A stretch of 64,000 bases of DNA from a bacterium. Its GTDB lineage: Bacteria > Armatimonadota > UBA5829. A program made the position numbers and the translations under genes. Positions 4,971 through 20,124 of this stretch are shown here, one piece after another (positions within the stretch are counted from its first letter, which is position 1; every line of letters begins with the position of its first letter). The notes below the pieces were generated by a model. It worked only from the letters and a program-made list of their open reading frames with translations. It was not told the origin of the DNA and ran no database searches. The stretch spans positions 1 through 64,000 of the forward strand of contig JAJFVF010000011.1 in the NCBI GenBank assembly GCA_021371935.1. Direction: 5' to 3'.

Positions 4971-5534
4971 TCAGCGGAACCACGAGTAACCTAACGCAAC
5001 GATACTGGCATTGACCCCCAGATTAGGCAGTTTGATGCCTGCATTGGATGTGTGTGAGAACACATATTCAATGGTATAAGCCGAACTTGTTTCTGTCGAG
5101 TGTTGCAAGACCAGTCCCAACTGTTCTGTAAAGTTTGTGCGTGTTCCCTGTTCGCTGATGTGGTCACCAAAGTGCAATATGCCTATGTTAAAGTCATATG
5201 CCAGTGCGGTTTGGCCTCTGACGAGGAAATATCTTCTATAGCTGCCGGTCGTCCATAAGGCCGAGTTATCATCATCACCTTCCATATTGCCGTATCCCAG
5301 GTTGACTGCAAGCTGAGTCCTTGGCGAGGTAAAGACGCCATATCTGAGCTTAATAGTGTCGAATGAGAAGCGGTCTTTTGTCGCTTCGGGGATCTTGTGG
5401 TTTTCACCGTAGCCCATAAGCAGCGAGATTTCGCGCTGGCCCCTTGTCATCGAATCGAATCTGAGAGGATCGGCATGCGTCGGGCAAATACAGACAAAAA
5501 AAGCAATGATAGAAAGACACAAGACCCTGTGCAT
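4971..5534 (-). CDS. Outer-membrane barrel protein, PagL-like acyloxyacyl hydrolase
   Basis: A 187-residue protein with a signal peptide ending near THA-DP and alternating beta-strand patterns to a terminal aromatic (GYSWFR). The C-terminal segment EYVFSHTSNAGIKLPNLGVN matches the PagL lipid A 3-O-deacylase signature, in which the His and Ser of H-x-SNA and the N-x-G-x-N are conserved. In this reading His/Ser of FSHTSNA would be the active-site pair. The start at 5534 is supported by GGAGGA upstream. Its presence points to an outer membrane. Other small barrels could share parts of this pattern. Confidence 0.6.
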   Translation of the reverse strand: MHRVLCLSIIAFFVCICPTHADPLRFDSMTRGQREISLLMGYGENHKIPEATKDRFSFDTIKLRYGVFTSPRTQLAVNLGYGNMEGDDDNSALWTTGSYRRYFLVRGQTALAYDFNIGILHFGDHISEQGTRTNFTEQLGLVLQHSTETSSAYTIEYVFSHTSNAGIKLPNLGVNASIVALGYSWFR

Positions 5535-5986
5535 TAAGCGTTCCTCCAATAGCAGCCATCCACACATATATGCTACCGACCGCATTGCCTGCAGTCAAGT
5601 ATGTAAGTGCTCACACATTTTGAAAAAACTATCGCCCCAGCATCCTGAGCTTGGTCGAAAGGTGCGGATAAGTGTAATCAACAGTATATAATTACCCGCA
5701 TGCTTCGACATTGCTCAGCATGCTCACTTTTTCATTTGTGAGCAGTTACTCAAGCAGCAGTTCATTGTAAACCGGCACAAGTTTTTTTGTGTGAACAAGT
5801 TTCTTTGCGCGAATATGATTTTTCGGGAGGGCGAAGCTCCTGCTGAGCCAATTCAATTCACCCGTTGAAACGAATCACTCTTTGTATTCGTCATACCCAA
5901 GAGGCGGCCGAGTGTGATAAAATCTTACATGGTTATCTGGCCTGTCTATAAGTGCTCAACCAATCATATAACAGGGCGGGTGAATT
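5535..5986. other. Intergenic region with repeats, no gene seen
   Basis: About 450 bp between divergent genes. It holds a CTGAGCTTGGTCGAA-type dispersed word near 5650, a GCTCAC/GTGAGC hairpin at about 5722-5743 and a family A copy at 5825-5849. The stretch before 5987 has only weak promoter-like sequence (TGATAAAAT near 5914). Confidence 0.6.
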
Positions 5987-8900
5987 TTGTTCTTCAAGAG
6001 AATAGCCCAATACATCGGGACTCTACTCCTGATTACAATATTGACGTCCGGGGCATGTTGGTCTCAAACGTCTGCAAAGAAGGCCAGGATTCTGGCTCAA
6101 CTTACCCAGGCGACTAAGGCCCAGCTTCCTGCGCGCGTCGACTCTGTCGTGAGAACGAACACCACCGAGTCATCCCAGCTTACAATAGACCTGATCGTCT
6201 ATAAGTGGATGGTCAGGCTCTCGGAGCTGCCCATAGATGTCACAAACATCAACACGGTAATACCCGCTCTTGCCAAGAAACTCAACAACCCTTCGGTCAA
6301 TGCTGCGCAGCAGTTGTTTTCCACCGTTCAGCCAATAGGTAAGCAGGCGGTTCTGAACATAACACGTGACGAGAAGACCAAAGCCCTTGAAGGCATACGA
6401 GCCGAGTTTATGAATGCAATAGACTACAAGGAGTCATATCCCACTCAGGCTGTCGACTCTCTTGTTGCGCTGGTCGAGATGTGTCAAGGTCAACATCTGG
6501 ACATCTCGGAGGCCGTCGTGCTCAAGGAGCTTGGCGATCACTATTTGTACGGCATGTCCAGATATCTTGACGCCGAGGAGTGCTACAAAACCGCTTCCCT
6601 GATATTCACATCATATAGCTGCATCCGTTCGAGCGCCATTGTCTATGATGATTACGGCTGGCTCGACTTCGAGACAGGCCGTTATTCTGCCGCAATGGAC
6701 AATTATACCCTGGCCGCTCAGCAGTGGATGCTGCTTGCCGGTCAGGATGCCAGCAGATATCGATATCGTGATCTGGCCGGACGCGAGTATATGAGGGCTG
6801 GTGATGCATCGCGAGCTGCGGGTGACACATCTGGTGCACTGCAGTTGATGACGGCGTATGGGTTGGATCAGCTCCGCACATGGGCGCATGCCACCAAGTC
6901 ATACTCCGAACTTGTTACGAATTTGATATCAGTGGCGGAGCTTTGTAAAGACCGCGGAGATATTACGAGGGCATTGAGTCTGCTGAATGAAGCCAAGTTG
7001 GCTCCTTGCGATGCCACACTCACAGCAAAGACATATGAAATGCTTTCGGAGGTATATGCCGCTGCGCGTCAGAGTTCGTATTCATCCGAGGCGATGCGCA
7101 AGCGAGAAAAGGCTTTGATTTCAGCCGCTGCGGCAGGTGAGGCCGCCATATCAGGGCTGCAGAAAGACACTCCATCCGATAAGGCGCGTCAAGCAAAAGC
7201 CGAACAAGGCGCATATGCTTATGTCGAGTTGGGCAATTACGATAAATCCGCCTCGGCCTGGAGCAGGATTGCGGATATATATTCTGCTGCCGGAATAGTT
7301 GTTCAGAGGGTAGAGTCTCTACGCAAATATGCGGATGCTTTGTATGCGCAGGGCAAGTCACAGGAAGCGATGGGAGTAAGACTTGATGCCGCCATGACAG
7401 CAAGGAAGGCAAATAAGATGTCACTGGCTGCAGATATTGTTCTATATGATATGGTACCGGCGTTCAAAGAAATGGGTGACATCAATAACGCCATAGAAGG
7501 TTTTAAGGAGCTTGTCCCCATTCTGGGAAGCTCCGGCAACCGGCGGGCATACGCAAGTGTTTTGGAGGCGCGCGGCATTCTGTTCGAGAAATATAGGCAG
7601 TATGACAAAGCGATCTCTGATTTGCAGGAAGCGCGAATCAGATATAGTTCGCAGGTAGGAGACTCATGGGCCGCATGCGATGTCTCTCTCAAACTCGCCG
7701 AAGCCCAGAGGAAGGCTGGTCGCGATAGCGATGCGCTCAGCACGCTCGAGACGAGTCTGGGAATAATTGAGTCGAACGCCGCAAATGACAGAATCGATCC
7801 CGCCATAAACTCTTTCCACAGCGACGTCATTATGAACGTCTATTGTGATCTTGCATCGTCATATGTGCTTGCGGATAGGCCCGCGGATGCCAAGACCCTG
7901 CTGCAGAAAGTGGGGCGCTACACATGGCTGCCGGAGCGCATCAACAGGATGAAGACAGACACAAATCCCAAGATTGCACAGTTTGCGCAGACACTTGATA
8001 TTATTTCCGGCGGCGGCCAGACCAATGATAACAGTATTTCAGGCGGTGAGAGATTATTGGCGGACAACTGGGCGGATTTCTGGCATGCTTGCCTGATGTT
8101 CAGGAAACAGAACCCGTTGGTATTCAATGCGCTGCCTGTCGATCCTCTCGATCTATGCAGAAAGCGCGATATGCTTCCCAGGATGGGCACGGTCGTGGAG
8201 TATATGTTCACTGATACGGCAGTGTATGTATTTATCTGCAAATATGAAAAATCCGTATGCAGACAGATTCGTGTTTCGCGGCAGGACCTGGACAAACAGA
8301 TATCCGATCTGCGTGCAGCTCTCAACAATTGCGAAGACAGCCAGAGCGCAGGCATACCGACACCGCCGATCAATGACTGGCAGTCACAGTCTTTCACTGA
8401 GATCCGCAAGCCCTTGGAGGGGCTATATAACATATTGATTGCGCCGATAAAGCAGGATATAGAAAGCGCCAAGACGCTGCATTTCGCCTTGCCGGATGAG
8501 CTTGCTGGCATTCCGATGCATGCGCTGCTGGAGCCGTCTGATCCGAATGCGGATTATGTTCCCAAGTTTCTCATCAAGGAGTATGGGGTCAGCTATCTGG
8601 GTCATGGAATGCTCGACAATCTGATTGATGAAGACAGCCGGATCGATTCAAAGTCGGACTGGCTTGCGATCTTCGTCGACCCTGACAACAACTTGCCGGG
8701 TGCTCAGGAAGAGGCCAGGACCATAAAGGCGCTGTATCTCAAAAGCGGCTGGTATGTCGGTCAGAACGCCACCAGCGCCAACTTCCTCAAGGAGGCGGGC
8801 AGGGCGAGTGTGCTGCACATTGCCGCTCACCACAAGGTCGATCCGGGCAAGTTCGAGCTTAAATTGGCATCTCAAGCCGGTTCGGACGGCAGTGTTACCA

Positions 8901-9232
8901 TAGACGAGCTTATATCGGTTACAAATCCGCATTTGAACCTTGTTGTATTATCTGCATGTGATTCAGTTGGTTCTTCCGACCCGATATCCTCAGGTCCGTC
9001 GAGTGCCGCAGAGGTATTTTCTATGGTGGGCGCGAAATCAATATTAGGCGGTTTGTGGAAGGTATCGGACAAATCCGCGTCTAGTATAATGGGCGGGTTT
9101 TACCGCGACCTTACGGATGGTGAGACCAGAATAGAGTCACTTCAATCCGCCCAACTTGCAGCCATCGACGGCAAGCAGTATGCCCATCCGTTCTATTGGG
9201 CATGCTTTGCTCTGTACGGATGTCCGTGGTAA
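5987..9232 (+). CDS. Secreted TPR-CHAT caspase-like protease
   Basis: A 1081-residue protein. It has a signal peptide (residues 1-26, ending CWS-QT), then about 600 residues of tetratricopeptide-type helical repeats (for example LKELGDHYLYGMSRYLDAEE, and AYVELGNYDKSASAWSRIA), a linker, and a C-terminal CHAT domain. The CHAT catalytic pair is visible: HIAAHH, with His948 the likely base, and LSACDS with Cys991 the nucleophile. CHAT domains are caspase/separase-fold cysteine proteases, and TPRs usually bind the trigger or substrate. Start is TTG at 5987. A sigma factor and a membrane anti-sigma factor follow directly, suggesting a regulatory protease. Substrate and trigger are unknown. Confidence 0.85.
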   Translation: MFFKRIAQYIGTLLLITILTSGACWSQTSAKKARILAQLTQATKAQLPARVDSVVRTNTTESSQLTIDLIVYKWMVRLSELPIDVTNINTVIPALAKKLNNPSVNAAQQLFSTVQPIGKQAVLNITRDEKTKALEGIRAEFMNAIDYKESYPTQAVDSLVALVEMCQGQHLDISEAVVLKELGDHYLYGMSRYLDAEECYKTASLIFTSYSCIRSSAIVYDDYGWLDFETGRYSAAMDNYTLAAQQWMLLAGQDASRYRYRDLAGREYMRAGDASRAAGDTSGALQLMTAYGLDQLRTWAHATKSYSELVTNLISVAELCKDRGDITRALSLLNEAKLAPCDATLTAKTYEMLSEVYAAARQSSYSSEAMRKREKALISAAAAGEAAISGLQKDTPSDKARQAKAEQGAYAYVELGNYDKSASAWSRIADIYSAAGIVVQRVESLRKYADALYAQGKSQEAMGVRLDAAMTARKANKMSLAADIVLYDMVPAFKEMGDINNAIEGFKELVPILGSSGNRRAYASVLEARGILFEKYRQYDKAISDLQEARIRYSSQVGDSWAACDVSLKLAEAQRKAGRDSDALSTLETSLGIIESNAANDRIDPAINSFHSDVIMNVYCDLASSYVLADRPADAKTLLQKVGRYTWLPERINRMKTDTNPKIAQFAQTLDIISGGGQTNDNSISGGERLLADNWADFWHACLMFRKQNPLVFNALPVDPLDLCRKRDMLPRMGTVVEYMFTDTAVYVFICKYEKSVCRQIRVSRQDLDKQISDLRAALNNCEDSQSAGIPTPPINDWQSQSFTEIRKPLEGLYNILIAPIKQDIESAKTLHFALPDELAGIPMHALLEPSDPNADYVPKFLIKEYGVSYLGHGMLDNLIDEDSRIDSKSDWLAIFVDPDNNLPGAQEEARTIKALYLKSGWYVGQNATSANFLKEAGRASVLHIAAHHKVDPGKFELKLASQAGSDGSVTIDELISVTNPHLNLVVLSACDSVGSSDPISSGPSSAAEVFSMVGAKSILGGLWKVSDKSASSIMGGFYRDLTDGETRIESLQSAQLAAIDGKQYAHPFYWACFALYGCPW

Positions 9233-9312
9233 AAAGAGAGTGGATAGTTGAAAGTGGAAAGCATAAAGCGATCTGTAATGGACTTTTCACTATTTCAGCC
9301 ATATGAGGTTTT

Positions 9313-10368
9313 ATGGACGCACAAGGCTTGCTTGAGGCATATATAAACTCTCCGGGCGCTTCCGGCGACAAATACTGGGAAAGACTTTCTGACGTTGTCA
9401 GGGACCTCGTGCACAGGTCTGTCGGTAAGCGTGAAGTTGCCGACCTCGAGGACTTCGAGGAGGACTGCATTCTTGCGATCTGGACGAAGATAAATATGCT
9501 CAAGCTCGGGCAGTCCGAAACAAGAATCGATAATTTCGAGGCATTCATCAGACGCGCCGTCCACAACCGCTACTGTGATGCAATCCGCCGCAAGCGCCCG
9601 ACTTGGTATAATCTCAAACTCGAGCTGCTTGAAATCTTCTCAGGCAAGGCAAATATCGAAGGCTTTGCACTCTGGCAAAACCCCGAGACCGGCGCGCGAA
9701 TATGCGGTTATGCCGATTGGCAGGGTTCATCAAAGCTTGCGAGCGCAAAATGCCGCGAGATAGTCGATGACCAGCCGGCTTTTTGCAGCAAACATCTCAA
9801 TAACCGTGATCCCCAGGAACTGGCTACTTATGAACTGGCCGCCGCTGTCTTTGACTGCTGCGGAGGACCTGTTGATATCGATGCGCTCACGAGCTGCCTC
9901 ACCGATCTCAAGCAGATTCGCAGTATGGAACCGCTTTCAATAGATTCTCAGCCTGACGGTGACGATGAGAGCGGTGCGCCATTGGAGTGGCTGGTCTCGC
10001 CTGACTCCGACGTAGAGAAACAGGTTGTTGATTCGGGTTGGTTTGCCCATGTCATAGATTGGTTCTGGAAGGAGTTCGTCCAACTGTCGATCAAACAGCG
10101 CAAAGCGCTGCTCTATGGCATGGCCGGCGACCAGGTCATGGCTCTCGGCACGTCTATCGGGCTGAATGAAGTTGCAAAATCTCTGGAAATAAGTTCTCGC
10201 GAGCTTGCGGTGTTGATAAACAAGCTGCCGGTGCCGGATGCAATCACTGCGGATGAGCTTGGCATTCAAGCGAGGGCGGTGCCGAGTGTGCGGTTCAAAG
10301 CCTGGGGCAGAATTCGCCGCCGGACAAAGAAATCCGCGCTCTCGGTCGATGAAGAATTAACTGTTTAG
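9313..10368 (+). CDS. Sigma-70 family factor, large ECF-like
   Basis: A 351-residue sigma factor. Residues about 20-100 match region 2: LEDFEEDCILAIWTKI, then DNFEAFIRRAVHNRYCDAIRRKRP, the -10-recognition helix pattern. A region 4-like helix-turn-helix follows after residue 250 (LSIKQRKALLYG, then IGLNEVAKSLEISSRELAVLINKL). Between them is an unusual insert of about 110 residues with several cysteines and a CGYADWQ motif, so the protein is much longer than a normal ECF sigma (about 180-200 residues). GAGG precedes the ATG. It sits 80 bp after the TPR-CHAT gene and before the anti-sigma gene, which identifies its likely regulator. Confidence 0.75.
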   Translation: MDAQGLLEAYINSPGASGDKYWERLSDVVRDLVHRSVGKREVADLEDFEEDCILAIWTKINMLKLGQSETRIDNFEAFIRRAVHNRYCDAIRRKRPTWYNLKLELLEIFSGKANIEGFALWQNPETGARICGYADWQGSSKLASAKCREIVDDQPAFCSKHLNNRDPQELATYELAAAVFDCCGGPVDIDALTSCLTDLKQIRSMEPLSIDSQPDGDDESGAPLEWLVSPDSDVEKQVVDSGWFAHVIDWFWKEFVQLSIKQRKALLYGMAGDQVMALGTSIGLNEVAKSLEISSRELAVLINKLPVPDAITADELGIQARAVPSVRFKAWGRIRRRTKKSALSVDEELTV

Positions 10369-10527
10369 TATATTGTATTGGTTATTTTGGTCGAATCAAT
10401 ACTTGTTGTTGATCTGAAATGTCCTGATGGTCGTGGGTATTCCTGCCCTTTTACGGTCAGGGTGGGGCATTACCGGTAAAAATTACAGTTTCTTAAGCCG
10501 ATATATTTTCTGGCAACATTTGTATTT

Positions 10528-10558
10528 TTGACACGTCTCAACTAATCGTAGGTACAAT
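10528..10558 (+). promoter_or_regulatory. Promoter immediately upstream of the anti-sigma gene
   Basis: A perfect TTGACA (10528-10533) and TACAAT (10553-10558) separated by 19 bp. The -10 box ends only 3 bp before the ATG at 10562. The expected transcription start therefore falls on or just past the start codon, implying a leaderless or near-leaderless mRNA, or use of a later start. Confidence 0.5.
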
Positions 10559-10561
10559 GCG

Positions 10562-11872
10562 ATGAAATGCATAGATGAAAAAGAAATGAAAATCTACGTT
10601 GAGGGCAAGCTCGATCCCGAGAGGATGGTTGAGATTGACGAGCATATCAGCTCGTGTCCCGATTGCCGGTCTGCAGTCAGCGATATGTTGTCGCTGAAAA
10701 AGGCTGCCGCCGGGTTGGGCGCATCTCTGCTTGGTGTGGACGACTGCCCTGAATACGAGGATATATCGGCATTTGTGGACGGCACGCTTGAGCCGGATAA
10801 GATGGCGTGGATACGGTCGCACATAAATTTGTGTGAGGCCTGCTATAGCGATGTCGAACGCATTCGTGAGATGCGGTCGCATGCCTCTCTTCGTGAGAAG
10901 ATAGTGGTTCGTCCGATGTCGAATCGAGACGCGGCACGTCAGGGTTTCGGCCTTTGGAAGCGGGTAGTCACGGGTTTTGCAGGCGCGGCAGTAATAGCGG
11001 CAGCGGTTTTCGCGATAGGCACATTTACTTCAGCGCCCGAATCTCCGACAATGGTGGCGTCTAAACCGTCCATAGTCGGTCATGTCAAACCCAATGTCTC
11101 AACGCCCGACAGCAATGCTGCAGAGGTGAAGCCGAATGTCACTGCACCATCCACAAAGCCGGACACAGTCGCCGCCAATCCCGAATCCAGGCCAAGTATC
11201 ATACTCCGGGACGGGAAGTATAGTGTAATAAAGAGTAATGGGCGTATGGTTCTGGCTGATGCAAGTGGTGCTCCGAGGACGGCTCTTGAGGCCAAGATAG
11301 CGGCTTCCATAGACGAAAAACTCAGGACCGGCAAGGTGAAGTTAGCGAAGACGGCGCAGTATGCTATGGCAGATGTGCATCTGCGAGGCAGCGAGTCGGG
11401 CTATACACCTTCCCCGGATGCTCCGAAGCCGGTCGCACCGATAGGCAAGGTAATAATGTCTGACAGGCCCACACTTACCTGGTCCAAGGTAGACTTGGCT
11501 GATTCCTATAGAGTCCGCATATACGATTCAAAATCTCAGCTTGTAAGCGAAATCGTGACTAATATGAACTCTATCACACTGCGCAAACCGCTCGCGAGAG
11601 GCGAATGGTATGCTTGGCGTGTCGGTGTAAGGTTCAGTGAGAGCGATTCTTGGGCTGATTCCGCGCGGGCTGAGTTTCAGGTGCTCTCTTCCGATGGTTA
11701 TTCATCGATACAGAGGATAAAGAGAACACTTCCCGGCTCGCACATTGCGCTTGGGGCGGCATATGAGTCGGTTGGTCTTTATGAAGAGGCCAGGCAGGAG
11801 TATAGAGCTGTAAGGCGTTCAAATCCGAACTCCGCTCTAGCCAAAAAAATGCTCTACAACACATCCAAGTAA
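10562..11872 (+). CDS. Membrane anti-sigma factor with two zinc fingers
   Basis: A 436-residue protein. The N-terminus carries two zf-HC2 (ZAS) fingers: Cys3...His28-x3-Cys32-x2-Cys35 and Cys62...His87-x3-Cys91-x2-Cys94. A single transmembrane helix follows at about 135-155 (VVTGFAGAAVIAAAVFAIG). Beyond it is a Pro/Thr-rich linker, a Fn3-like segment (PTLTWSKVDLADSYRVRIYD, WYAWRV) and C-terminal TPR-like helices (HIALGAAYESVGLYEEARQEY). This is the architecture of a transmembrane anti-sigma factor with an external sensing part. Cys3 is needed as a zinc ligand, which fixes the start at 10562. It probably holds the upstream sigma factor; its external part is a candidate CHAT protease target. 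Confidence 0.8.
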   Translation: MKCIDEKEMKIYVEGKLDPERMVEIDEHISSCPDCRSAVSDMLSLKKAAAGLGASLLGVDDCPEYEDISAFVDGTLEPDKMAWIRSHINLCEACYSDVERIREMRSHASLREKIVVRPMSNRDAARQGFGLWKRVVTGFAGAAVIAAAVFAIGTFTSAPESPTMVASKPSIVGHVKPNVSTPDSNAAEVKPNVTAPSTKPDTVAANPESRPSIILRDGKYSVIKSNGRMVLADASGAPRTALEAKIAASIDEKLRTGKVKLAKTAQYAMADVHLRGSESGYTPSPDAPKPVAPIGKVIMSDRPTLTWSKVDLADSYRVRIYDSKSQLVSEIVTNMNSITLRKPLARGEWYAWRVGVRFSESDSWADSARAEFQVLSSDGYSSIQRIKRTLPGSHIALGAAYESVGLYEEARQEYRAVRRSNPNSALAKKMLYNTSK

Positions 11873-11912
11873 TAAATGTAAATACTCAATCTAAAATCCA
11901 AAATATAAAATC

Positions 11913-11943
11913 AAATGGCTCGTTTGTGGCGAGCCATTTTTTT
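11913..11943 (+). terminator. Rho-independent terminator after the anti-sigma gene
   Basis: A 10-bp perfect stem (AAATGGCTCG with CGAGCCATTT), 7-nt loop and a run of T residues, 40 bp after the anti-sigma stop. It closes the CHAT/sigma/anti-sigma transcription unit. Confidence 0.9.
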
Positions 11944-13061: not shown

Positions 13062-14309
13062 ATGAATCGACACAAATCAGTTTTATTTGTATTAATTGTT
13101 GGGCTTTTGGTTCTACCGACATTGTCATATGCGCAGCTTGGTGTAAAGGATCTTAATGTAGGTGACGCGGTAGACCTCAGTGGTGTCCGCATCACGGCAA
13201 TCGGTGGAACCGGAGGAATAACCACTGATTACGGTTACATCGAGGATGCGAACCGTATAGAGGGTGCAAGATTTTATATATCTTCGCTGACGGCCAAAGG
13301 TGTCGGCATTGGCGACGAGATTACTATTTCCGGGACCATTGCCCAGGACACCATCGGCAAGTATATCAATATCGGCACCATAGAAAAGACCGGGGCATAT
13401 GTGCCGTTGGAAGCATATGCCATGAACAATACTGCACTGGCCGAGGAAAACGCGAGGGGACTTTTTGTGCTGACGTGGGGAAAGGTAAAGAGCAGCAGCA
13501 CCACTTATTTCACCATCAATGATGGAGGCTCCACTCAGATCAAGGTCTATTGCGGCTCGATGACCAAGCCGACTGTTGGCCAGGTAGTGCGGGTTCGAGG
13601 CATAGCAGGCGGGACCAATTTGTATATGAGGAGAGAGTACACTGATTGGGTATACGCAAGCAGTGAATTCCATGCTCTTCCTTTGCCGGGCAAGTATAGA
13701 TATCCTCGTGAGTGGCTTGTTCTGGGTCCGTTCAAGGATGCGAGCCATACCAACGATTACGAACTGCTGGATGTTGATTTCATAAAGGCATATACGGGCA
13801 TTGACGAGTATGCGGCAACGCCAAAGGCGGGCGATACAGTAGGGGGCAATACCTGGACTCGAGTGAAGAGTCAGTTTGACATACTTCCTCTCGACAGTGT
13901 GCTTGCTCCTGCGGATGTCGAACACGCCGTGATCTATGTTCACTTATATATATGGTCGCAGACCGAGGGTCCCAGTGTTTATATGAATGCCGGATGCAAC
14001 GATTGGTTCAGGGTCTGGCTCAACGGTGATGATCCCGACAATACAACTCCCGAGATTTTGCGGATCGACCAGGGTGATTGTTCAACAGGTCGCGGTGTAG
14101 TATTTGGCGATGACGGTCCATTTGCGATCACTCTGCACGCCGGTCTAAACAGCCTTATGTTCAAGATAGTCAACCAGACCGATCTGACCGGTTTGTGCTG
14201 CCAGTTCACTCAATATACTGCATCGAGCGTTCGTGGTTATGGTGGTTTCTCTGCATACACAGCAACCGGTCTGGGCTATGTATTGAATAGCCCGGATACG
14301 GAGGAATGA
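13062..14309 (+). CDS. Secreted OB-fold-like protein heading the C39-like cluster
   Basis: A 415-residue exported protein: the signal peptide ends near LSYA-QL. Two successive OB-fold-like (tRNA_anti/DUF5689-type) segments follow. The first is about residues 20-115 (LNVGDAVDLSGVRITAIG, then GIGDEITISGTIA); the second is about 125-195 (GLFVLTWGKVKSSSTTYFTI, then PTVGQVVRVRGIAGG). The C-terminal half (YPREWLVLGPFKD, VYLHLYIW, DWFRVWLNGD) resembles beta-sandwich, PA14/NPCBM-like modules found with carbohydrate-active enzymes. The start is set by GGGAGC and the signal peptide. The stop overlaps the first ATG of the next gene, so it is probably co-expressed with the four papain-fold genes. Ligand unknown. 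Confidence 0.6.
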   Translation: MNRHKSVLFVLIVGLLVLPTLSYAQLGVKDLNVGDAVDLSGVRITAIGGTGGITTDYGYIEDANRIEGARFYISSLTAKGVGIGDEITISGTIAQDTIGKYINIGTIEKTGAYVPLEAYAMNNTALAEENARGLFVLTWGKVKSSSTTYFTINDGGSTQIKVYCGSMTKPTVGQVVRVRGIAGGTNLYMRREYTDWVYASSEFHALPLPGKYRYPREWLVLGPFKDASHTNDYELLDVDFIKAYTGIDEYAATPKAGDTVGGNTWTRVKSQFDILPLDSVLAPADVEHAVIYVHLYIWSQTEGPSVYMNAGCNDWFRVWLNGDDPDNTTPEILRIDQGDCSTGRGVVFGDDGPFAITLHAGLNSLMFKIVNQTDLTGLCCQFTQYTASSVRGYGGFSAYTATGLGYVLNSPDTEE

Positions 14310-14311
14310 AC

Positions 14312-15397
14312 ATGTGGCCCAGACTTGCGCTTATTTGTGTTCTTCTGTCTGTCGGGGTAAGCTCCGATGCACTTGAGAGCGGGTGTTCACCAGTGACGAA
14401 TCTTGCTTCGGGCATCACTCCAAGCGTCACGGTAGTAAACAATGACGCCAACCTGGCATATGAGGGTGAGTCACTTTCCGACATAACCGACGGGTCACTG
14501 GTATATACGATGCCGAGTTTGCGGCAGGAAGACGGCTGTGTGGGTTGGCGAAATTCTGTTAGTGGTCGAACGATGACGGTAACGGTGCAGATAAACCTGG
14601 GTTCAAACTGTGCTGTAAACTCGATACGCTACAACCCGGGGAATTTGCCATTGTCAACTTTGGCCGCGGACACAATGACCACTCCGTTTGGGACCACTAG
14701 TGTAAATGGAGTGCCAAACGCCTGGACCACGCAATATGCGACGACTACTATAGAGACCTCAACTGTTACAATTACGTTGAAGAAGAAAAACACGGCTGCA
14801 AACAGGAACTGGATGTTTATCGGTGAGATCGAAGTATACGGGACGGTCATTGAGCCTCCTCCTCCGCCGACTCAGGTAATTCTCGGCGTATCTTTCCTAA
14901 AGCAGTTTTATACATATAATGGCGGTGACTGCGGCCATGCCAGTTGTGGTCCGGCATCTTTGTCGATGTGCGCCTGCTATGTTTTGGGTAGGACTCCGAC
15001 ATATCTGGACATAGTGAATGTATGGTCATACCTCGGACGCGATACCTGTGGCAACGAATCATCGGGAACCAGCCTCACGGAGTTGAGAAATGCGGCGCGT
15101 GGCTGGCCGTTCGGGTTGAGCAATGTGTATAAGTCCACACTGACTCTTCAGGGCGTCAAAAACGAGATTACCGCCGGTCGGCCGGTACTTGTTCATGTGC
15201 AGTGCAGCTATCTGTCAAATAGAGGATATTCATACACTGGAGGCCATTATATTGCCGCTGTCGGATATGACACGGGATACCTTATCTGCAATGATCCGGG
15301 CACATATCTTGGCGAGCACAAGTATTATTCCGACTCAGATATGACCGGAGCAATGGCTTACTATGGCAATGAGGTGCTGCGCGGTTTTTATCAATAG
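14312..15397 (+). CDS. Secreted C39-like papain-fold protein 1, discoidin-like N-terminus
   Basis: A 361-residue secreted protein. After the signal peptide, residues about 25-185 form a discoidin/F5-8C-like beta sandwich (LAYEGESLSDITDGS, GCVGWRNSVSGRTMTVTVQI, then WMFIGEIEVYG). A Pro-rich linker leads to a C39-like peptidase domain with the active-site Cys in ASCGPAS (Cys212), His in GGHYIAA (His312) and the following NDPG. C39-like secreted domains act as cysteine peptidases or transferases, while discoidin modules bind glycans or surfaces. The start at 14312 rather than 14306 gives correct spacing from GGAGG. It is the first of four paralogues in tandem; the target is unknown. Confidence 0.75.
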   Translation: MWPRLALICVLLSVGVSSDALESGCSPVTNLASGITPSVTVVNNDANLAYEGESLSDITDGSLVYTMPSLRQEDGCVGWRNSVSGRTMTVTVQINLGSNCAVNSIRYNPGNLPLSTLAADTMTTPFGTTSVNGVPNAWTTQYATTTIETSTVTITLKKKNTAANRNWMFIGEIEVYGTVIEPPPPPTQVILGVSFLKQFYTYNGGDCGHASCGPASLSMCACYVLGRTPTYLDIVNVWSYLGRDTCGNESSGTSLTELRNAARGWPFGLSNVYKSTLTLQGVKNEITAGRPVLVHVQCSYLSNRGYSYTGGHYIAAVGYDTGYLICNDPGTYLGEHKYYSDSDMTGAMAYYGNEVLRGFYQ

Positions 15398-15445
15398 AGG
15401 TTGGGCTTATTCGTATATTGATGATATGTGGATGAGGGAACTCAG

Positions 15446-16588
15446 ATGAAAAAAATATTTTATAGTTTCTGTGCTTTATGTGTATTGCTGTTGATGGTAA
15501 CATCATGTGTGGTGGCTGACTCTGTATGTCAGAACGACACGAATCTTGCCCTGGGCAAATCTGTCAGCCTAACAGTTGTAAATAATGACGGCAATCTTGC
15601 ATATGAGGGTGAGTCATCTTCGGACATCACCGACGGTTCGCTGGCATATATCGACCCCAGTCAAAGGCAGGAGGACGGATGTGTCGGCTGGAAAAACAGT
15701 GTCAGTGGTCGGACCATGACTGTTGCGGTCACCATCGATCTGGGGGTGGCCTGCAACATCACCGCAATTCGCTATAATAAAGGCAACACTCCTTCTGCTG
15801 GAATGGCTGCAGATACGATTACCACAACCTTGGGCAAAACGAGCGTCAACACCGGCAGCTCTGGTGCATGGACTACGCACTATGCTGCCGCCGCAGTCGA
15901 GTCTTCAGCAGTAACAATAACTCTGACCAAGACCAACACCGGCACCGATAGTGACTGGATGTTTATAGGTGAGATAGAAGTGTATGGATCAGTTGTAGTG
16001 GTTCCTCCTCCGCCTGTCGGCACATTGCTGCCGGTGACATTCCTGGGGCAGCACTTCAGTGATGCTTACTGCTCCGATGGTGGGGGCGGCAGTTGCGGTC
16101 CTGCGTCGCTTGCCATGTGTGCAGCCTACACGCTGGGAAGAGCGCCTGTAGTCGACGATATCAAAAAAGTGTGGTCATACATTCATGGCCATCCAAGCAC
16201 ATACGATTACAGCTATGAATGCGGCAATGACATGACCGGCACCAGCTTGACTCAGCTCAGGAATGCTGCTCGCGGCTGGCCTTTTGGACTGGGCAATGTC
16301 TCATATGTTTACATCAGCACGCTGCAGACGATATGGAACGAGCTGGATGCCGGCCGTCCAATGGTAGTGCATGTGGTTTGCTCACATCTGTCGAATCGTC
16401 CATATGATTGGAAAGGCGGACATTATGTGGCTGTTATAGGCTATGATGAGGACCACATAATTTGCCATGATCCCATAAATTCTTACGGCACACAGATATA
16501 CTATGACAATGACGATATGTTGGCTGCCATCCTGGATGATTGCAGCGGCACGTGCAACGTCGGCGGTCTGCGTTACTTCTACCAATAA
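15446..16588 (+). CDS. Secreted C39-like papain-fold protein 2
   Basis: A 380-residue paralogue of its neighbours. The signal sequence (MKKIFYSFCALCVLLLM, then TSC) could also be a lipoprotein signal with Cys near residue 21. The discoidin-like domain (LAYEGESSSDITDGS, GWKNSVSGRTM, DWMFIGEIEVYG) and linker VVVPPPPVG follow. The C39-like domain has Cys in GSCGPAS, His in GGHYVAV and HDPI. Its catalytic half carries an insert (HGHPSTYDYSYECGND) and is the most divergent of the first three copies. Its N-terminal half is nearly identical in DNA to that of the next gene. The start is chosen for signal peptide and GAGGGA spacing. Confidence 0.75.
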   Translation: MKKIFYSFCALCVLLLMVTSCVVADSVCQNDTNLALGKSVSLTVVNNDGNLAYEGESSSDITDGSLAYIDPSQRQEDGCVGWKNSVSGRTMTVAVTIDLGVACNITAIRYNKGNTPSAGMAADTITTTLGKTSVNTGSSGAWTTHYAAAAVESSAVTITLTKTNTGTDSDWMFIGEIEVYGSVVVVPPPPVGTLLPVTFLGQHFSDAYCSDGGGGSCGPASLAMCAAYTLGRAPVVDDIKKVWSYIHGHPSTYDYSYECGNDMTGTSLTQLRNAARGWPFGLGNVSYVYISTLQTIWNELDAGRPMVVHVVCSHLSNRPYDWKGGHYVAVIGYDEDHIICHDPINSYGTQIYYDNDDMLAAILDDCSGTCNVGGLRYFYQ

Positions 16589-16677
16589 TTACTTGAGCTG
16601 CAGCGGTGACATAGCTGATCCGTATCAGTTAATTAGTGTCAAGCTTGTTCGGATGTAGTGTGGTTGAGGAGATTCGG

Positions 16678-17778
16678 TTGAAAAGGTTGTTATATTCTGG
16701 CAGCGCTCTATGTGTATTTTTACTAGTGATGGCGAATATCGCCTCGGCCTCTATTTGTCAGAACGATACGAATCTTGTTTTGGGCAAGTCGGTGACCGTA
16801 GCTGTCGTAAATAATGATGCGGCCCTGGCCTATGAAGGCGAGTCATCTTCGGACATCACCGACGGTTCGCTGGTGTATATCGACCCCAGCCAAAGGCAGG
16901 AGGACGGCTGTGTCGGCTGGAAAAACAGTGTCAGTGGCCGGACTATGACTGTTGTTGTGGATATCGATCTGGGGGTGGCCTGCAACATCACCGCAATTCG
17001 CTACAATAAAGGCAACACCCCTTCTGCCGGAATGGCTGCCGATACGATTACCACTTCTTTGGGCACAACCAGCATAAATACGGGCACTTCTGGTGCATGG
17101 ACCACGCAATATGCCGCAGCCGCAGTCGAGTCTTCAACAGTAACGATAACTCTGACCAAGACCAACACAGGCGCCGATAGTGACTGGATGTTTATAGGTG
17201 AGATCGAGGTGTATGGCAGTGTAGTTACGACGCCTGTAGAGGAACCCCCGACCTCAGTTCTGCTGAATGTGCCGTTTTTGGAGCAATTTTACTCACTCAA
17301 CGGCAGTAGTTGCGGCAACGGCAGTTGTGGTCCTGCGTCGTTGTCGATGTGTGCATGTTATGTATTGGGAAGGTCTGCAACCTATCTGGATATAGTGAAT
17401 GTTTGGTCATTTCTGGGTCGCGACACATGCGGCAACGACTCATCCGGGACCAGTCTGACGGAGTTAGCGAATGCTGCTCGCGGTTGGCCATTTGGCTTGA
17501 GCAATGTGTATCGCTCCACGCTGACATTGCAGGGTGTCAAAGATGAACTTGCAGCGGGTCGGCCTGTGGTAGTTCATGTCCAGGCGGGTTATTTGACAAC
17601 CCGCAAGTACACGTATACCGGTGGCCACTATATTGCCGCAATAGGTTATGATGAGGATCATATTATCTGCAACGATCCCGGCACGATGAATGGAGAGCGG
17701 TGCAATTATTCCAATGAGGATATGACTGCTGCAATGGCGTATAAAGGAAATGGCGTATTGCGCGGTTTTTATCAGTAA
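16678..17778 (+). CDS. Secreted C39-like papain-fold protein 3, mosaic copy
   Basis: A 366-residue paralogue starting at TTG (16678), with TTGAGGAG about 8 bp upstream and a signal peptide ending IASAS. The discoidin-like half is almost the same as in copy 2 (IDPSQRQEDGCVGWKNSVSG, then NKGNTPSAGMAADTITT). The catalytic half instead follows copy 1 (CGPASLSMCACYVLGR, TYLDIVNVWSFLGRDTCGN, AARGWPFGLSNVYRSTLTLQ). Active-site Cys (GSCGPAS), His (GGHYIAA) and NDPG are intact. The switch in ancestry part-way through suggests recombination between neighbours. Confidence 0.75.
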   Translation: MKRLLYSGSALCVFLLVMANIASASICQNDTNLVLGKSVTVAVVNNDAALAYEGESSSDITDGSLVYIDPSQRQEDGCVGWKNSVSGRTMTVVVDIDLGVACNITAIRYNKGNTPSAGMAADTITTSLGTTSINTGTSGAWTTQYAAAAVESSTVTITLTKTNTGADSDWMFIGEIEVYGSVVTTPVEEPPTSVLLNVPFLEQFYSLNGSSCGNGSCGPASLSMCACYVLGRSATYLDIVNVWSFLGRDTCGNDSSGTSLTELANAARGWPFGLSNVYRSTLTLQGVKDELAAGRPVVVHVQAGYLTTRKYTYTGGHYIAAIGYDEDHIICNDPGTMNGERCNYSNEDMTAAMAYKGNGVLRGFYQ

Positions 17779-17889
17779 ACAAGGAGAACCACATACAACA
17801 AATATAATATATAATGTATAAAATTAGTTGCATGGTTCCGGTATACCGGACAGGGAGAGAGGCTGTGCTAATGTATTGGAGGAAACAAG

Positions 17890-18984
17890 GTGTACTGGAA
17901 ACCGGCAATATGTTTATTTCTATTGCTCACAGTGATATGCACCGCTGCAGCAGCCTCGGATTGTGTATCACCATCAAACATCGTTCTCGGCAAAACGGTG
18001 ACGATCAGTGTCGAGGGCAACGACGGGAAGTTGGCCTATGAAGGCGAATCGGCGTCAGACATCACAGATGGTTCTCTGACATACATCTCGCCCGAACAGC
18101 GAAAAGAGGACGGCTGTGTAGGTTGGTGCAACAGCACTTCAGGTCAGCAGATGACAGTGACTTTGACGATTGATCTGGGTGCAAGGTATGAGATAAGTTG
18201 CATACGGTATAACACAGGCGACACAGACCATGCCGACACATGGGCAGCCGACAGCATGACCACAGCTTTAGGGACGACAAGCATTGAGCCGGGCAGTGAA
18301 GGCAGTGGCGCATGGACGAACCAATACGGCAACACAACCACCTCAAGTTTGACAATCACCCTCACCAAGACCAACTCAGGAACGGATCAGGACTGGCTCT
18401 TTATAGGCGAGATCCAGGTATGGGGAGTGCCTGCTGGTCTGCCTGATTCGGTATTGCTGGATGTAACGTTTGCTTCTCAGTTTTGCAGCACCAGTTTTGT
18501 TATCTCAAGCAATGTATGCTGTGGTCCGACATCTCTGTCCATGTGTGGATGCTATGCCAATGGTCTGACTGATGTCTGCGATCACATCACCGCCATCAAT
18601 ACCTATTTGGGTCGTTCGACAGACTGCAGCGGAACCGGTGGAGTAGGCTGGGATTTGCTGCTTCAAGCTGGTGCAGGCGTGTTTGGCCTGAGTGGCCTGA
18701 CTCATGAGATATGGGATATATCGCAGATCAAGGCCGAACTGGCCGAAGGTGGTCCCATGATTGTGGGGGTAAAGGCGGGCTGTCTAAGTAATCGTGGTTA
18801 TACTTATACAGGTGGTCACTATATTGTAGCGATCGGTTATGATGCCGACGATATCATCTGCAATGATCCCGGCACAAGTTTCAACCAGCCGAAGTATTAC
18901 AGCAACTCTGATTTTACTGAAGCCATTACCGCCACCGGCTCCGGCATACCAAACGGAGTGATCCACGGGTTCAGGAAAGAGTAA
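17890..18984 (+). CDS. Secreted C39-like papain-fold protein 4, divergent copy
   Basis: A 364-residue paralogue starting at GTG with GGAGGA upstream; the signal peptide ends TAAAAS. The discoidin-like half is recognisable (LAYEGESASDITDGSLTYIS, DWLFIGEIQVWG). The peptidase half is the most divergent of the four: CCGPTSLSMCGCYANG with an extra Cys next to the nucleophile, a glycine-rich LLLQAGAGVFGLSG region, GGHYIVA and NDPG. Extra cysteines suggest disulfides. It ends just before a strong shared terminator and closes the cluster. Confidence 0.75.
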   Translation: MYWKPAICLFLLLTVICTAAAASDCVSPSNIVLGKTVTISVEGNDGKLAYEGESASDITDGSLTYISPEQRKEDGCVGWCNSTSGQQMTVTLTIDLGARYEISCIRYNTGDTDHADTWAADSMTTALGTTSIEPGSEGSGAWTNQYGNTTTSSLTITLTKTNSGTDQDWLFIGEIQVWGVPAGLPDSVLLDVTFASQFCSTSFVISSNVCCGPTSLSMCGCYANGLTDVCDHITAINTYLGRSTDCSGTGGVGWDLLLQAGAGVFGLSGLTHEIWDISQIKAELAEGGPMIVGVKAGCLSNRGYTYTGGHYIVAIGYDADDIICNDPGTSFNQPKYYSNSDFTEAITATGSGIPNGVIHGFRKE

Positions 18985-19030: not shown

Positions 19031-20026
19031 TTATCGTAACTTGATGCCGACAGCAATCCTGCGGGGTGTCGGTTCCTTAAGAATCACTTCTTCAAGCACT
19101 TCACTTCCGATCTTGTTGCCATTTTCGTAGATTGTGGCGACTTTCACCTGACGTTTACCCGAGGTTCCTGGTGAGAGCACCACGCTTTTGCCTGTAAAGA
19201 GTGTCGCGCTGGAGACTTTCTGTATGGGTGCAGGGATTTTTTCCATGCGCTCGCTCTGGTCTCTGACAATTACTGTGAGTCCCGCTTTTCGAGGCTGAGT
19301 CTGTTTGATCTTGATCTTATCGCCGATTTGCAGATGGACCAGGTCCGTATTCGAATTAAGAGAAGCAAGTTCATCCAGACTCAGGTGATTTCTTGATGCA
19401 ATTGAGGACGCGACATCGCCGCTTTCGACTGTGTATATCGCATCTTTCCTGATGGGTTCTGTAGAGTCGAATATAAGCTTGATGGCCTGTTGAGCTGTCT
19501 TACAGAAGAGCGCGGGGTTTATAGCCGCGACATCCACGGTCACGTTTTCTTTGAACTGAGGTTCTTCCGCCAGGTTTTTTGCCAACTGTCCGAATTTCAT
19601 TTTAGCCATCTCCAGCACTTCTCCAGCGGTTTTGCGGTCAGCCACTGCCACAATGGGTTTGCCGTCCACTATAACCGACCATCTCGGCGCGACGGGTGTG
19701 ACGACATGCTGGACTACTCTTATGGCCATATGACGGCTCACGGGACGCGCATTGCCGGGTGCTCTCGCAACTCGCACTTCCTGCTTGAACTCAATTTCTG
19801 CGGGGTCACAGCCGGTCTTGCGCTTAACTTCCTGGATAACGCCTCTGGCTTCCTGTTCGGAGGGCACGCACACCACAGGCCTGCCGTCCACGACGATCAC
19901 GGATTTATTGCCATGGAGCCTGCCGATGCCCCATATAGCGATGAGTATGATTGCGATGAGGGCAAAGACGATTCTTTCAATCATCAGCCGTCTTTGCAGG
20001 TTACGGATAATCTGTTCATTGTCCAT
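19031..20026 (-). CDS. Membrane-anchored LysM-G5 cell-wall protein
   Basis: A 331-residue protein. An N-terminal transmembrane helix (IVFALIAIILIAIWGIG) anchors an extracytoplasmic part. Two related segments repeat a VDGRP/VDGKP motif (VIVVDGRPVVCVPSEQEAR and SVIVDGKPIVAVADRKTAG). A LysM domain follows (YTVESGDVASSIASRNHLSL, LQIGDKIKI) and then a G5 domain to the C-terminus (FTGKSVVLSPGTSGKRQVKV, EVILKEPTPRRIAVG). This set is typical of resuscitation/YabE-like or M23-linked peptidoglycan-binding proteins, here without a catalytic domain. The start at 20026 has GGGAG about 10 bp upstream. The role is probably cell-wall binding. Confidence 0.75.
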   Translation of the reverse strand: MDNEQIIRNLQRRLMIERIVFALIAIILIAIWGIGRLHGNKSVIVVDGRPVVCVPSEQEARGVIQEVKRKTGCDPAEIEFKQEVRVARAPGNARPVSRHMAIRVVQHVVTPVAPRWSVIVDGKPIVAVADRKTAGEVLEMAKMKFGQLAKNLAEEPQFKENVTVDVAAINPALFCKTAQQAIKLIFDSTEPIRKDAIYTVESGDVASSIASRNHLSLDELASLNSNTDLVHLQIGDKIKIKQTQPRKAGLTVIVRDQSERMEKIPAPIQKVSSATLFTGKSVVLSPGTSGKRQVKVATIYENGNKIGSEVLEEVILKEPTPRRIAVGIKLR

Positions 20027-20124
20027 ATATTTGCTCCCAACTTGTCCCATCTTTTATTATAACTGACTGGTTGGTGGTGTCAAATATTGATCTTTGCGGT
20101 GCGCTCGCGTATACTTGGCTTGTA

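Follow-up and report, generated by a model that had tools for sequence, protein, structure and literature searches.

A predicted secreted TPR-CHAT protease encoded with a large sigma factor and a membrane anti-sigma factor in Armatimonadota: an arrangement resembling a split Myxococcus DdvA

The window analysed here, i.e. the whole 64,000-nucleotide stretch of contig JAJFVF010000011.1 (assembly GCA_021371935.1, Armatimonadota, UBA5829; host genome of 3.54 Mb), carries three same-strand ORFs between positions 5987 and 11943 (features lie on the + strand unless stated otherwise). The first (5987..9232, TTG start) encodes a TPR-CHAT caspase-like protease of 1081 aa, the second (9313..10368) a large sigma-70 family factor of 351 aa, and the third (10562..11872) a membrane anti-sigma factor of 436 aa. 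They are followed by an intrinsic terminator (11913..11939), which consists of a 12-bp stem and a T-run (-15.8 kcal/mol, z -3.5). As 193 bp separate the sigma and anti-sigma genes, co-transcription is presumed. Just 5' of the CHAT gene, a conserved promoter-like element, TGTGNTARAATCT (5913..5932), was recognised in four congeneric species. This element is similar to an extended -10 box and has one exact match in its own genome, at the operon itself, along with two more matches carrying 2-3 mismatches and one control match. With no clear recurrence elsewhere in the genome, the motif is at most a possible regulon marker. When the three proteins were searched with defence-system models, the CHAT protein matched BovA only (0.0098), and neither the sigma nor the anti-sigma factor matched any model.

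The CHAT domain (residues 808-1078, 8408..9220) matches Pfam PF12770 with an E-value of 1.8e-45 (156.1 bits for a cut-off of 24), which places the protein among the CHAT peptidases (clan CD). Its His and Cys motifs, LHIAAHH and VVLSAC, are invariant among orthologues, and so are the catalytic residues His948 (codon 8828..8830) and Cys991 (codon 8957..8959) in a nine-orthologue alignment. More broadly, these columns hold His and Cys in 17 of 17 sigma-linked CHATs and in 32 of 33 ECF-linked CHATs. It is preceded in the chain by a long TPR solenoid (residues about 129-630, 6371..7876; TPR_12, E 7.5e-16), visible as helical pairs in the structural model. Residues about 1-27 (5987..6067) read as a signal peptide, KRIAQYIGTLLLITILTSGACWS followed by Q, which is kept in orthologues (leaders and transmembrane helices were read throughout from hydropathy and by eye, here together with the alignment). 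From this leader, we infer that the protease is secreted, i.e. extracytoplasmic. The AF2 model (mean pLDDT 80.6) superposes on separase 5fby over 325 residues of its 696-1081 part (Z 28.6, rmsd 3.0 A) and aligns to Csx29 with a Z of 27.4. In the PDB, Foldseek ranks 8rw5 first ("transmembrane anti-sigma factor DdvA", E 2.2e-12), separase and Csx29 coming after it, whereas by VIA Z DdvA (19.5) comes below both.

Taken alone, the sigma factor of the window scores weakly (Sigma70_r2, E 0.026; TIGR02937, E 2.9e-4). Its assignment is clear at the family level: TIGR02937 is matched by 12 of the 18 family members (best E 5.5e-11) and Sigma70_r4_2 by four relatives (best E 1.9e-5). As the sigma profile has no match at E 1 among PDB sequences, the assignment draws on these relatives and on the fold, which agrees with the presence of regions 2 and 4. 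The AlphaFold model is moderately confident (mean pLDDT 71.6, pTM 0.40), and its top fold matches are all sigma factors, over both ends of the protein. Region 2 (residues 1 to about 96, 9313..9600), which carries the Sigma70_r2/TIGR02937 match, aligns to sigmaE region 2 (4lup, Z 7.2, 3.4 A over 82 residues), and region 4 (residues 240 to about 343, 10030..10341) aligns to CnrH (4cxf, Z 7.6, 2.7 A over 67 residues). They are separated by an unclassified insert of about 140 residues, parts of which are modelled with confidence.

The anti-sigma factor begins with two zf-HC2 zinc fingers (E 2.7e-14): C3, H28, C32 and C35 (10562..10681), then C62, H87, C91 and C94 (10745..10852). A profile of the first finger matches DdvA, RslA, ChrR and RsiW in the PDB. 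The fingers are followed by a single transmembrane helix (residues 135-153, 10964..11020), with a hydropathy of 2.2 across 19 residues. From the WKR just before the helix, the N-terminus is predicted to lie inside. With a zf-HC2 finger, a transmembrane helix and an adjoining sigma gene, the protein belongs to the ZAS anti-sigma factors, and its fingers are predicted to sequester the sigma factor. The putative extracytoplasmic part (11204..11854) comprises a conserved L-DG...LRTGK segment, an Ig/Fn3-like domain (weak matches, E 0.083 to 0.32) and a C-terminal TPR (TPR_14, E 3.6e-4 to 6.5e-4). The same architecture was read in relatives from families f9, f15, f21, f22, f24 and f31. In the anti-sigma alignment, the stalk that follows the helix reads as a variable Pro/Thr-rich linker, with no recognisable cleavage site.

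These observations agree with a first-pass annotation of this DNA, which had described three consecutive genes ending at a terminator: a TPR-CHAT protease with a signal peptide and an intact His/Cys pair, placed outside the cytoplasm, a large sigma-70 factor, and an anti-sigma factor with two zinc fingers inside and TPR/Fn3-like parts outside. Its account holds for the coordinates, the hairpin and the domain assignments, the sigma factor included; the location of the protease is supported by its leader-like N-terminus, and the Ig-like match is weak.

A divergent gene beside the operon (4971..5585, - strand) encodes a PagL-like outer-membrane lipid A 3-O-deacylase (PF09411, E 8.9e-13), an enzyme that implies an outer membrane. 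A PagL homologue lies directly upstream of, and co-directional with, the CHAT gene in genomes G006 and G010 (gaps of 78 and 39 bp); in G002 it is divergent, and in G011 about 6 kb separate it from the sigma gene. The PagL-like gene may be an accessory member of the module. Further downstream, at positions 14306-18984, a tandem array of genes encodes secreted proteins that resemble one another and carry C39-like papain-type domains. The three that were scanned match PF13529 (E 1.3e-8 to 5.3e-16), and one also matches F5/8 C weakly. In sister species G004, a homologue is encoded downstream of the operon. The array adjoins a gene (19031-20050, - strand) for a LysM and G5 membrane protein of cell-wall-type architecture.

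Conservation of the linkage was evaluated in Armatimonadota only (291 genomes). A search of the 30 nearest genomes found one copy each of the sigma family in 12 of them, in addition to the copy of the window; phylum-wide, the family is present in 28 of the 291 genomes. CHATs are found in 26 of the 28 sigma-positive versus 130 of the 263 sigma-negative genomes (Fisher 4e-6, not corrected for kinship). Among the 24 sigma loci with flanks long enough to be resolvable, 17, representing eight families, carry a CHAT gene no more than about 5 kb from the sigma gene, for a chance expectation roughly estimated at about 0.65% per locus. Gene order varies: the CHAT gene may precede or follow the sigma gene, be convergent to it or flank it on both sides. 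In families f1 and f2 (order-mate), it immediately precedes the sigma gene in most cases, and in f2 the CHAT stop overlaps the sigma start by 1 base. The CHAT tree requires six changes of the sigma-linked label, at least two of them forced by supported branches, which suggests that the linkage arose or disappeared repeatedly. The linkage of the three genes is therefore conserved in Armatimonadota, a check that the first-pass annotation had proposed and that it passes.

Exceptions nevertheless exist. In G007 and G011 the CHAT is kept but lies on another contig than the sigma/anti-sigma pair, G005 has a CHAT without the large sigma factor, and five sigma loci (L086, L087, L088, L092 and L098) have no CHAT nearby. 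Furthermore, about half of Armatimonadota genomes have CHATs, many of them away from the sigma gene. Anti-sigma factors vary as well: the ectodomain is short in f2, with no recognisable Ig/Fn3 or TPR part, and lacks a TPR in G009, yet the CHAT linkage holds in both cases. The suggestion that the TPRs carried by the CHAT and the anti-sigma factor of the window could meet is weakened by these ectodomains. Other variations were observed at sigma loci. Family f2 (L020:5475-8040, L021:4781-7333) has a second, ordinary ECF sigma factor and a single-finger anti-sigma factor, whose ectodomain is short and disordered, inserted after the large sigma factor. In G083 (L085:818-2494), the large sigma gene adjoins a gene whose zinc-finger anti-sigma-like N-terminus is continuous with a multi-pass membrane part (several transmembrane helices). 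In G032 (L086:8570-10000), the large sigma factor has an FHA domain at its N-terminus (Pfam, E 1.2e-13), and the anti-sigma factor found with it is soluble.

All sigma-linked CHATs with an intact N-terminus show a leader-like hydropathy profile (weak in L021), and the anti-sigma factors of the leader-bearing ones have a transmembrane helix and an outside part (borderline by hydropathy in L083 and L090). Another 33 Armatimonadota CHATs lie near a small ECF gene; 25 of them have no leader by hydropathy, and eight of these 25 are accompanied by a soluble zinc-finger-like protein, encoded beside the ECF gene or between it and the CHAT, which we take for an anti-sigma factor. For example, L152 (3069-7234), L155, L156, L205 and L208 carry an ECF gene, a gene for a soluble H-x(4)-C-x(2)-C zinc-finger-like protein and a leaderless CHAT gene side by side. 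Such loci form a second arrangement of CHAT and sigma factor, apparently a cytoplasmic one. When an anti-sigma factor was identified, it was a membrane protein for 22 of 22 leader-bearing CHATs, whereas the leaderless ones had eight soluble and five membrane anti-sigma factors (raw Fisher p 5.5e-5). Under phylogenetic control, this association loses significance, falling to 2-3 independent contrasts, none discordant (clade-level p 0.5), and compartment matching was thus discarded as independent evidence. The agreement between the CHAT leader and the predicted membrane location of its anti-sigma factor is no more than suggestive. A comparison of CHAT adjacency with ectodomain-bearing anti-sigma factors on the sigma tree was underpowered, with long-branch joins, and was set aside.

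The closest known counterpart of this unit is DdvA, whose structures are available under PDB 8rot, 8rw5 and 8rlz. Residues 8-44 of the 8rw5 CHAT chain match the zinc finger deposited as "Antisigma factor DdvA" (8rlz) letter for letter, which makes DdvA a natural fusion of a ZAS anti-sigma factor and a TPR-CHAT. It reportedly has an incomplete active site, and its autoproteolysis before the action of RseP has reportedly been proposed. In Myxococcus xanthus, DdvA inhibits the ECF sigma factor DdvS, with an external trigger given as unknown as of 2015 (PMC4374960); DdvS controls an antiphage defence island (PMC12288465). Both systems combine a cytoplasmic ZAS-type finger, a transmembrane helix, an extracytoplasmic TPR-CHAT (predicted in the window) and a partner sigma factor. 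The window unit does not qualify as DdvA-type (finger, helix and TPR-CHAT in one chain), as two separate genes are found here and the CHAT is a separate, putatively secreted protein. In addition, its anti-sigma factor combines two zinc fingers with an Ig-like/TPR ectodomain of its own, its sigma factor is of a large divergent type with an insert, and its His/Cys pair is conserved. No zinc-finger/CHAT fusion was noticed among the Armatimonadota CHAT genes examined. Given the DdvA precedent, an extracytoplasmic CHAT coupled to an anti-sigma factor is not new in itself.

The first-pass annotation had instead drawn its comparison with Csx29, which cuts Csx30 and thereby frees CASP-sigma in the type III-E CRISPR Craspase system (PMC10028731). 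This comparison stands in that a TPR-CHAT protease, a sigma factor and its inhibitor are encoded together in both cases, with similar CHAT folds, but it was incomplete, as the nearest precedent, DdvA, had been missed. The Csx29 system is cytoplasmic, RNA-guided by Cas7-11 and without a membrane anti-sigma factor, and the window CHAT is not a member of the Csx29 family (13 bits for a 300-bit cut-off). Proteolytic control has also been proposed for ECF54 from the presence of CHAT in its genetic context (PMC8999054). The CHAT neighbour is shared, but ECF54 is a small ECF sigma factor described as lacking an anti-sigma factor, and the zinc-finger anti-sigma factor of the window sets it apart from that description. 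Finally, RseA (with RseP) and RsiW resemble our case in that a membrane anti-sigma factor would be cut first in its ectodomain and then by an M50 protease. Their site-1 protease is of the DegS/PrsW type, whereas the candidate in the window is a caspase-like CHAT. As read from its sequence, the window unit differs from the DdvA, ECF54 and Csx29 systems: its CHAT and anti-sigma factor are separate and predicted to be extracytoplasmic, its His/Cys pair is intact and its sigma factor is large. Overall, it looks like a split version of Myxococcus DdvA, Csx29/Csx30/CASP-sigma being a cytoplasmic analogue.

We favour a model in which the unit probably turns genes on upon an event outside the cell membrane. 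The double-zinc-finger anti-sigma factor would keep the large sigma factor bound on the cytoplasmic side of the membrane and expose its own ectodomain to the compartment that receives the secreted protease. An envelope signal sensed by the TPR-CHAT protein would activate the His948/Cys991 site, and the activated CHAT would then cut the anti-sigma ectodomain (site-1), the favoured though putative step. An RseP-type M50 protease would subsequently cut within the membrane and free the sigma factor; an RseP-like M50 protease is encoded in the host genome (E 1.3e-55). Such a dedicated extracytoplasmic switch, a split DdvA, is suggested by the linkage in 17 of 24 loci, the leaders and transmembrane anti-sigma factors, the His/Cys pair in all 17 sigma-linked CHATs, the fold match to DdvA and the M50 protease. 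Against it stand the lack of a visible cleavage site, the split in G007/G011, the short ectodomain and extra ECF factor of f2, the G005 CHAT and the drop to 2-3 contrasts, so that we give this reading an even chance.

Alternatively, the CHAT could be an output under sigma control, acting on other envelope or foreign proteins once outside. It is indeed the first gene of the unit, with the promoter-like element just 5', it has been kept in G007/G011 after moving away from the sigma pair, and DdvS drives a defence island in M. xanthus (PMC12288465). However, in DdvA the CHAT is part of the anti-sigma factor itself, leaderless CHATs at ECF loci come with soluble anti-sigma factors, which fits an upstream role better, and the promoter-like element resembles an extended -10 box without clear recurrence. 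We therefore regard an output role as rather unlikely. Another possibility is that the CHAT is a non-cleaving sensor or scaffold, which would dock on the ectodomain and either reshape it or change how accessible it is to another site-1 protease, as may be the case for the periplasmic part of DdvA. The long TPR solenoid and the TPR at the anti-sigma C-terminus would suit such docking, and DdvA, the closest structure, is said to have an incomplete active site, but the invariance of His948/Cys991 in all sigma-linked CHATs argues for catalysis and makes this possibility distinctly unlikely. Lastly, separate functions merely travelling together would account for the five sigma loci with no CHAT nearby and for the many CHATs not near a sigma gene, but are highly improbable given the repeated linkage in differing gene orders, the at least two forced label changes on the CHAT tree and the natural fusion in DdvA.

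Under the favoured switch model, a freestanding, catalytically intact, secreted TPR-CHAT would be a dedicated site-1 protease, and Armatimonadota would possess two parallel CHAT/anti-sigma/sigma switches, one outside the cytoplasm (with the large sigma factor) and one inside (with a small ECF factor and a soluble anti-sigma factor); we consider this extension plausible, if somewhat short of an even bet. If true, caspase/separase-type proteases would be found among bacterial transcription regulators outside CRISPR, and Csx29/CASP-sigma and DdvA would be linked as members of a wider CHAT-sigma theme. One protease and one candidate substrate would then form a simple pair converting an envelope or phage signal into a sigma response.
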